64,000 nt of DNA, from positions 186,001 through 250,000 of the forward strand of contig NC_014297.1 in NCBI RefSeq assembly GCF_000196895.1, written 5' to 3'. Position 1 is the first letter of the stretch. Each line of letters opens with the position of its first letter. This document shows, piece after piece, positions 46,025-48,039 of this stretch. This DNA is from Halalkalicoccus jeotgali B3 (GTDB lineage Archaea > Halobacteriota > Halobacteria > Halobacteriales > Halalkalicoccaceae). Position numbers and translations under genes: made by a program. The notes under the pieces were generated by a model. The model saw nothing but the letters and a program-made list of their open reading frames with translations, did no database searches and was not told where the DNA came from.

Positions 46025-46158
46025 AACGGTCTGGCCGACCAACTCGGTCTGGACGAGGCCGCCACCTGCTCGAGCAGAACCTGCGCGAGAAGCAGGAGAC
46101 GCTCGCCGAGCTCGCCGAACTCGGCGAGGAGTTCGACTCCGGTCGCATCGAGGCGTAG
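46025..46158 (+). pseudogene. C-terminal remnant of a DUF892 (YciE/YciF-like ferritin-fold) gene
   Basis: Two adjacent frames together read NGLADQLGLDEAAT and LLEQNLREKQETLAELAE, then EFDSGRIEA and TAG. The junction is at about 46063-46066 and needs one inserted base. The joined text looks like the last helix pair of a DUF892 ferritin-like protein. No upstream domain remains, so the gene is both 5'-deleted and frameshifted. It marks the edge of AT-rich island 2. Confidence 0.45.
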
Positions 46159-46252
46159 TCGCTCGACTCACCGGTCTGATCTCTCGTTTTTCGCAACCAC
46201 GCCGAGACGTCCATGAGAAGCGTTGCTGCCACTGGTACCGCGTGGATGCTGG

Positions 46253-46642
46253 TTACGACCGATACAGCAGGGCGAGCATGACGACGCCACCGATCGCACC
46301 GGTGATCGTGAACCCGATCACGTCGAACGACGAGCGGACCGTGACGAGGAACACTGCACCGACGGCGAACCACAGGGCGAAGACGGTCACCAAGATCCGT
46401 TCCGTCGGCCCGGACTGACCGGATGAGGTTCGATCCTCTTCCAACCGGGCACCGAGCTTGATTCCGACGTACAGTATTAGGAGTAACAGACCGAGCACTA
46501 TGTCCACGATCCACTCCCCGACCGATGCACCCTGCACGAACGCCTGCAAACCCGGGTACGCGATTAGTGCAGTTGCGACCGTAACCATGACTGGCCAGAC
46601 GAGTCGCATCTTTTTTTTCGGAATAGCGGAGTTTTCAGTCAT
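46253..46642 (-). CDS. Small four-span membrane protein, possible immunity partner
   Basis: A 129-residue protein starting MTENSAIPKKKMRLVWPV with about four hydrophobic segments (VTVATALIAYPGLQAFV, IVDIVLGLLLLILYVGIKL, ILVTVFALWFAVGAVFLVTV, IGFTITGAIGGVVMLALL) and a hydrophilic loop (ARLEEDRTSSGQSGPTE). No family was recognised. It is the third gene of a minus-strand series after a Tat exoprotein and a hydrophobic peptide, 77 bases downstream of the peptide. A role as producer self-protection is an inference from layout only. Confidence 0.65.
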   Translation of the reverse strand: MTENSAIPKKKMRLVWPVMVTVATALIAYPGLQAFVQGASVGEWIVDIVLGLLLLILYVGIKLGARLEEDRTSSGQSGPTERILVTVFALWFAVGAVFLVTVRSSFDVIGFTITGAIGGVVMLALLYRS

Positions 46643-46719
46643 GTGTATGAATATTGTCTACAGTCATCATCTGTCTATCCTCGGTCAGTCACCGGCGTAC
46701 GCTAGCACAATTAAGTGGC

Positions 46720-47001
46720 TCATTGTCGGCTGATACTCGGGGTCGCTCTGCTGGGGATCAAGACTGTCGTTGGATCGTAAGTTACCTCCCAGACGACGCC
46801 ACAGCCCCTGTTCACGACCACCATTGTTCCCCACGTAATAAGGATCGCTCCAGCGACAAAAGCTGCGGCGGGACTGCTGAGAGCCCCCGCAGCGATGACC
46901 CCTCTCTGAACGAGTCTTTGGTATATTGTCCCACTTCCAGCACCGATCGCGATAAGTCTGTCAAGGTTGCTGATTGTAGCGTCACTGAGGTAGAGTCTCA
47001 C
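46720..47001 (-). CDS. Hydrophobic small protein with Gly-rich tail, halocin-like candidate (5' end interrupted)
   Basis: A 93-residue frame from a GTG at 47001. It begins RLYLSDATISNLDRLIAIG, continues with a long hydrophobic Gly/Ala segment (GVIAAGALSSPAAAFVAGAI) and ends with a polar tail containing VVNRGCGVVWEVTYDP. In the same frame, ATG 47058 overlaps the preceding stop as TAATG and reads 13 codons (MCNRDDYEIESSW) before a TGA at 47017-47019, so the original start was probably 47058 and the gene may be interrupted. The shape is that of membrane-active peptides with a C-terminal Asn/Gly motif. I infer but cannot show secretion or toxicity. Confidence 0.5.
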   Translation of the reverse strand: MRLYLSDATISNLDRLIAIGAGSGTIYQRLVQRGVIAAGALSSPAAAFVAGAILITWGTMVVVNRGCGVVWEVTYDPTTVLIPSRATPSISRQ

Positions 47002-47057
47002 CGTTCGCCTCGCCCCTCACCACGAACTCTCTATTTCGTAATCGTCTCTATTGCACA

Positions 47058-47456
47058 TTACTGATCCTCCTTACTTGTCTCGGCAGAATCACCGTGGACC
47101 TCAATCGTCGTCTCATTAGCCGATATTTCGGATGTCTTCGCGCTCTCTTCCGGATCCTCATTTTTGTTCGTGATACTCAAGCGGCCTGCCTCAATCGCCC
47201 TGTTGAAGTCCTCAATGACCTCGCGCCACTGCCTGTATTCGGCTTCTTCTAACTCACTGGGGTCAACATTGATTTCAAATCGGCCATTTCTGACCTTGAG
47301 ACCTTTTCCGTCTCCGTGAGCGTTGTTGTGGCCTTTTCTGTTTCCACGACCGTTGGATGGGTCAGCGGTGGCGACACTGCTGCCTCCAACCAGCACTCCG
47401 AGGGATAATCCAGTATTTACCAGCACTTTTCTCCTTGAGCTGTTTTTGTTAGACAC
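47058..47456 (-). CDS. Tat-exported hydrophilic protein of island 2
   Basis: A 132-residue protein with an N-terminal SSRRKVLVNTGLSLGVLVGG, a Tat signal, cleaved probably after SSVATA. The mature part is very polar: a Gly/Asn/His-rich stretch (SNGRGNRKGHNNAHGDGKG), a short beta segment (VRNGRFEINVDPSE), a helix (YRQWREVIEDFNRAIEAGR) and a Ser/Thr/Glu-rich tail. There is no recognised domain. The start is GTG 47456, directly at the edge of an extremely AT-rich spacer. The stop overlaps the next start codon (TAATG), linking it to the hydrophobic peptide frame. Confidence 0.7.
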   Translation of the reverse strand: MSNKNSSRRKVLVNTGLSLGVLVGGSSVATADPSNGRGNRKGHNNAHGDGKGLKVRNGRFEINVDPSELEEAEYRQWREVIEDFNRAIEAGRLSITNKNEDPEESAKTSEISANETTIEVHGDSAETSKEDQ

Positions 47457-47564
47457 ATAATCTAAATATAACTAATAATATATATTACCTACTATAAAAT
47501 ACAAATTTATATTATATTTTTATAATATTTTATAAGATTATTAATCTATATTAGTTTATTTCAG
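47457..47564. other. Extremely AT-rich divergent spacer
   Basis: About 108 bases made almost only of A and T separate the minus-strand Tat exoprotein from the broken plus-strand frame. Many TATA-like strings are present on both strands, so a bidirectional promoter is plausible. No hairpin terminator or coding frame is seen. Confidence 0.7.
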
Positions 47565-47933
47565 ATGTGTATCTATCCTACTGATAACTTACAGACGGAG
47601 TCACCACAAGAAGATGCAGCCGTAATCCCAACCTCCGTCAGATATCTGATCGTCTGCGATCCCGTCTGAGCCGATTACTGCTTGGAACTGGAGGTTACTG
47701 TTTCATGGTATTACGTTGGGATTGAGGCGTACGTTGCTGGCGTTAACGTGGCTCAAGGTGGAATAGGCAGAGATGATCGATTCTGGTCCGTCTCGTTCAT
47801 TTACAAAGGTGTCAAGTTCACGGTCGGAGTCAACGCGGTATGGGATGGCGGCTATGACGTTCGACTTGATGCAACAGGAGAGGCCTGCGTACTCGGTCAA
47901 TGCGTCTCCGGAACACGGACTATCTCTCCATAA
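47565..47933 (+). pseudogene. Interrupted small protein frame in island 2
   Basis: From ATG 47565 the frame reads MCIYPTDNLQTESPQED through RYLIVCDPV, meets TGA at 47667-47669, and then continues without shift as ADYCLELEVTVSWYYVG for 87 more codons to TAA 47933. The second part is rich in beta-strand-like alternation (VSFIYKGVKFTVGVNAVW) and has a Cys pair in EACVLGQCVSG. Together this would be a protein of about 122 residues, with no obvious signal peptide. A TTG at 47682 could start the second part alone. Either a nonsense mutation or a wrong start explains it. Confidence 0.4.
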
Positions 47934-48039
47934 TTTTCTCCCGGACCACCTTACTGGATCCGGGGCCACGGCTCCAACTCACCCGTTCTGATGGTGGGTG
48001 CGCAACAGTTTTACCGCCCGATTGGCCACTAGCGGTATC

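Follow-up and report, generated by a model that had tools for sequence, protein, structure and literature searches.

Do three small minus-strand genes of Halalkalicoccus jeotgali B3, here called A, B and C (Table 1), form an antimicrobial peptide system with its own immunity gene, and is this system at work in the strain? An earlier note, made from the letters of the 64,000-nucleotide stretch analysed here (the window), had proposed such a cassette on acquired DNA. We consider it probable (roughly 0.6) that A-B-C is a halocin-like haloarchaeal toxin/immunity cassette whose toxin is probably dead in this genome and whose immunity part is retained. The antimicrobial idea fits the fused A-B precursors, the near-universal small membrane neighbour, the insertion at an otherwise conserved site and the lack of a match to known families, but the local copy, in which B carries a nonsense codon, is probably a non-producer. 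The three reading frames named in the earlier note (A, the part of B after the stop, and C) were recovered, as were the RR signal of A and four hydrophobic spans in C.

Table 1. Features of the locus, with positions in the window.
Feature	Positions	Strand	Description
DUF892 (ferritin-like) remnant	46031..46158	+	Truncated gene beside the island
Acquired island	46202..47982		About 1.78 kb, GC 0.511, flanked by alaS and the truncated DUF892 gene; edges placed to within about 10 bp
C	46253..46642	-	129-aa four-span membrane protein, intact ORF, proposed immunity protein
B	46720..47058	-	Gene of the proposed toxin domain, read from the TAATG, with an in-frame TGA inside; alignment with intact homologues spans the stop
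Part of B after the stop	46720..47001	-	ORF of the earlier note, beginning with GTG; has a hydrophobic stretch, NRGCGV and a Q at the end
Nonsense TGA	47017..47019	-	After B codon 13, at or beside a Gly of homologues; codon lists: window, L011, L010
GGAGG ribosome-binding site	47066..47070	-	7 nt upstream of the B ATG, within A
A	47058..47456	-	132-aa Tat-signal protein; SSRRKVL Tat motif; homologue of the N-terminal region in fused precursors
AT-rich upstream region	47457..47669		GC 0.286; probable promoter region of A
Gene fragment inside the island	47670..47933	+	Truncated homologue of a Tat-signal protein

The supposition of acquired, AT-rich DNA held: the GC content of the island compares with 0.664 for the window, and the region is an insertion at an otherwise conserved site. 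In six congeners alaS follows shortly after the end of the DUF892 gene and the island DNA is absent; in the most distant of them (L130) the alignment is confined to the two flanking genes. The DUF892 gene, assigned by the Pfam match of a congener gene, has lost its front three quarters here, which are present in congeners L125 and L126. The co-occurrence that the earlier note had proposed to look for was found, with homologues of A, B and C lying near one another in the same order in other haloarchaea, and given these ordered homologues and the absence from six congeners, the arrangement is not a product of chance. The plus-strand fragment inside the island belongs to a 209-214-aa Tat-signal protein that is whole in G066 and G117 (L122, L123) and gave no Pfam match.

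Stop-to-stop reading of the minus strand places the true start of B at the ATG of the TAATG junction (47056-47058), since the GGAGG site lies 7 bases upstream and split homologues carry a ribosome site at the same place of the A/B junction (GGAGGTGATG in L010, from G149, and GAGGGTGATG in L008, from G183). From this ATG, 13 codons (MCNRDDYEIESSW) lead to the in-frame TGA, after which the same frame continues as GARRTVRLYLSD..., also read as GARRTVRLYLSDATISN.... The TAATG that had been taken to join the first two genes thus follows A but does not open the next ORF directly; as B starts at TAATG, that 93-aa ORF, in which NRGCGVVWEVTY is present, is the remainder after the nonsense codon. Homologues of B align across the TGA, and a profile that does not contain window B (A11) matches it with E 3e-23 in an alignment running through the stop. 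With a nonsense codon after codon 13, called from one assembly, the copy in this genome is unlikely to be a functional producer. Ribosomes might instead restart at the GTG at 46999-47001 and keep the system active here by making a shorter B, without the first Cys but still with the hydrophobic region and the NRGCGV tail. A GAGG-like sequence upstream of this GTG and 92 more stop-free codons with an intact conserved tail speak for such a restart, but the strong ribosome site and conserved junction favour the TAATG start and the part lost includes a Cys kept in nearly all members, and we regard the restart as improbable.

When 293 genomes of the order were searched, clear relatives of B turned up in G183, G251, G149, G102, G171 and G049. 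Separate A and B genes share a TAATG in G183:C3, G251 and G149 and overlap as ATGA in G003; G102, G171 and G049 encode a single 255-260-aa protein with a Tat signal. The fused form, a Tat-exported precursor of about 200-285 aa with a C-terminal hydrophobic domain, is the commoner one among the homologues and ends in N-D/E-G-C-G-V and a terminal Q. Because the fused proteins read ...GCNRDD or ...SCNRQD at the join and split B proteins begin with M(x)CN, the split point lies directly before the first conserved Cys. In the domain tree the clade of the window, comprising split and fused members, has a support of 99/99; beyond this clade, each of the 13 rows is a fused protein. The B domain consists of the Cys, a short beta part, a Gly/Ala-rich hydrophobic helical region of 40-50 residues, the N-D/E-G-C-G-V motif and the terminal Q; the RR, the N and G of an FNxAIExG-like motif, the Cys, an Asp and the C-terminal motif with its final Q are conserved across the family. 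A itself has an FNxAIExGxL motif common to L008, L010, L011 and L013. No ordinary start codon precedes the Tat signal of A in G149, and A may be impaired there too.

The profile check suggested for the peptide tail, made with a profile of distant members, gave matches in 30 of 391 haloarchaeal genomes, spread over 19 of 86 genera, and approximately 8% of the sampled haloarchaeal species have a family member. Window B matches the C-terminal-domain profile of this haloarchaeal NDGCGV...Q precursor family, as we define it here. The system had been suggested to be undescribed, and neither the window proteins nor their relatives matched a family of Pfam, NCBIfam or PHROG. Searches of PADLOC and of PDB sequences yielded no useful match, a fold search with low-confidence models yielded none (pLDDT 47 and, for the four-helix model of C, 62), and none of the tested toxins was matched in sequence or in fold. 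Many weak matches of B to proteins of about 900 aa were treated as chance similarity of hydrophobic segments. Carriage by viruses or phages was rejected, no relatives having been found in viral contigs or phage records; the only plasmid-borne relative was that of Natrinema sp. SYSU A 869.

C-like four-span proteins lie less than 150 bp downstream of B in the window, G149, G049, G373 and G183:C10, and five of the six strongest matches to the C profile are directly downstream of B. Elsewhere in the family the neighbour is a 2-span protein of 58-86 aa, a 3-span protein of 118-131 aa or a different 4-span protein; the neighbours vary in size, and likeness among them was seen only in the 4-span C group and in the L057/L061/L160 group. 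When one rule was applied to all sites (an ORF of 50-175 aa, with two or more hydrophobic spans, no further than 500 bp away), a small membrane ORF was present at 26 of 27 Q-ending precursor loci versus 12 of 152 random sites, with a p value (5e-21) that is only a guide, as spans were counted with a simple hydropathy criterion and some of the loci are related by descent; L157 was counted in the Q group though its C-terminus is SVSTR. By the same rule a membrane neighbour accompanied none of the six members of the Cys-ending subgroup (0/6). The precursors L065-L067, L062, L070 and L147, most of which end in HCDC or similar, are without a small membrane neighbour; immunity in the HCDC-type subgroup may be carried by other means.

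An open orphan C exists in G197, and decayed copies occur in G029 (a congener), G134, G194 and G055, with L090, L089 and L092 among them. Together with the stop in B, the second gene fragment and the truncated DUF892 gene in or beside the island, the decayed copies in a congener and elsewhere could mean that the whole island is decaying acquired DNA, functionless at present, C included. However, the frames of A and C are fully open in the window and both have kept the residues conserved in their families, which makes such general decay rather doubtful.

At five loci the precursor is broken and the membrane gene open, through five different lesions (nonsense, frameshift, truncation, internal deletion and TnpB insertion). 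Besides the nonsense codon in B of the window, B is cut and runs into trpG in G183:C10, the frame shifts between CNRDD and VRLYLS in G373, the Tat signal is joined straight to the end of B in G354, and a TnpB-type element sits inside B of the split A/B cassette of G003 (L131), downstream of which an intact 123-aa four-span gene is found. The reverse, an exportable precursor with a broken membrane gene, was seen at none of the loci; L058 has an exportable precursor without a membrane neighbour. This 5:0 pattern (one-sided p 0.03, from a small sample) is suggestive and is what retained immunity predicts. In G055 precursor and membrane gene are both remnants, at the site where G149 carries the cassette. 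In Halostagnicola sp. A56 (L080) a Rieske-like protein has taken the place of the Tat part of A and is joined in frame to what is left of A, its tail, with B intact and C broken, an arrangement that is a recombination at the cassette. Alternatively, A-B-C might be a secreted peptide with a membrane partner in a non-killing role such as signalling or cell-surface assembly, a suggestion that draws on the missing homology to tested toxins. Yet the patchy distribution and rapid divergence resemble toxin/immunity genes and not a housekeeping or signalling pair, and precursors were repeatedly broken with the membrane gene kept, alongside orphan and decayed copies of C, so that we hold a non-killing role to be unlikely.

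According to the toxin/immunity reading, A would be a propeptide domain with a Tat signal that carries the C-terminal domain B out of the cell, either within a single polypeptide or as a separate protein, translationally coupled to A and probably passing the Tat pore in complex with it. B would presumably be released by processing and then inserted into the membrane of related cells, and the producer would be protected by its cognate small membrane protein, which is C or a counterpart of C. As B is cut by a nonsense codon and C is intact, the locus of this genome most likely confers immunity without production. Tentatively, and at somewhat less than even odds, we propose that the whole set is a toxin family, new and widespread in haloarchaea, whose members leave the cell by the Tat route and have small membrane proteins dedicated to immunity. 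In some lineages the precursor would have been split and its two products co-exported, the signal-less toxin presumably being carried through the Tat pore by its signal-bearing partner, and producers would repeatedly become immune non-producers when the toxin breaks and immunity is kept. Few halocins are known by sequence, and this putative antimicrobial family, with its share of about 8% of the sampled haloarchaeal species, is apparently undescribed. The natural split, immediately ahead of the first Cys, probably shows where the propeptide ends and the toxin begins and makes Tat co-export testable, and a recognisable family with a candidate immunity gene near almost every Q-ending copy would allow producers, immune non-producers and sensitive strains to be predicted.

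Halocin C8 (ProC8/HalC8-HalI) is made from a Tat-exported 283-aa precursor that yields an N-terminal protein and a small C-terminal peptide (PMC11509114, PMC12893001). The family described here shares with it the haloarchaeal host, a Tat-exported precursor of similar size and a C-terminal peptide, as found in the fused relatives with Tat use judged from sequence. Membership of the halocin C8 family was rejected, as halocin_C8_dom (TIGR04449), a model confirmed to be part of NCBIfam, was matched neither by the window proteins nor by 10-12 relatives, nor, up to E 10, by the alignment members. The halocin C8 peptide (76 aa) is rich in Cys, whereas the present family has two main Cys, and its immunity function lies inside the precursor, in contrast to the separate membrane neighbours and natural two-gene split observed here. 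In principle A could act as the immunity part, as in the halocin C8 precursor, but the presence of separate membrane neighbours speaks rather against this. HmHapP (HFX_0892) of Haloferax mediterranei, likewise a haloarchaeal precursor of similar size (about 235 aa), is activated by an extracellular protease, with the N-terminal 45 aa as active part (PMC12893001). Its ends as deduced from primer sequences (start MKMSTV, end FAGKDA) are neither Tat-like nor Q-ending, and identity with it was rejected on these primer-inferred ends.

The Geobacillin 26 family (Geo26, Ali24; NF035925) comprises secreted proteins, about 240 aa long, that carry a hydrophobic helix at the C-terminus and kill in a membrane-associated manner (PMC13176240). 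Such a protein with a tiny membrane ORF adjacent is common to both families, a resemblance of layout and not membership; Geo26 proteins have a Sec signal and Gram-positive hosts, in contrast to the Tat signal and haloarchaeal hosts here. Membership was rejected, since NF035925 scores stayed below threshold (E 0.017-0.055; 13.3 bits for L059 against a cut-off of 40 bits) and profile comparison with hhalign gave a probability of 0.4-0.5, that is, no homology. Beside Geo26-family bacteriocins we observed tiny 2-span ORFs in Alicyclobacillus acidoterrestris (L081:30951-31139, minus strand), where it is absent from the annotation, and in A. fastidiosus (L164:2272-2436, plus strand), where it is annotated as hypothetical; the two look alike by eye and are candidate immunity proteins of the Geo26 family.
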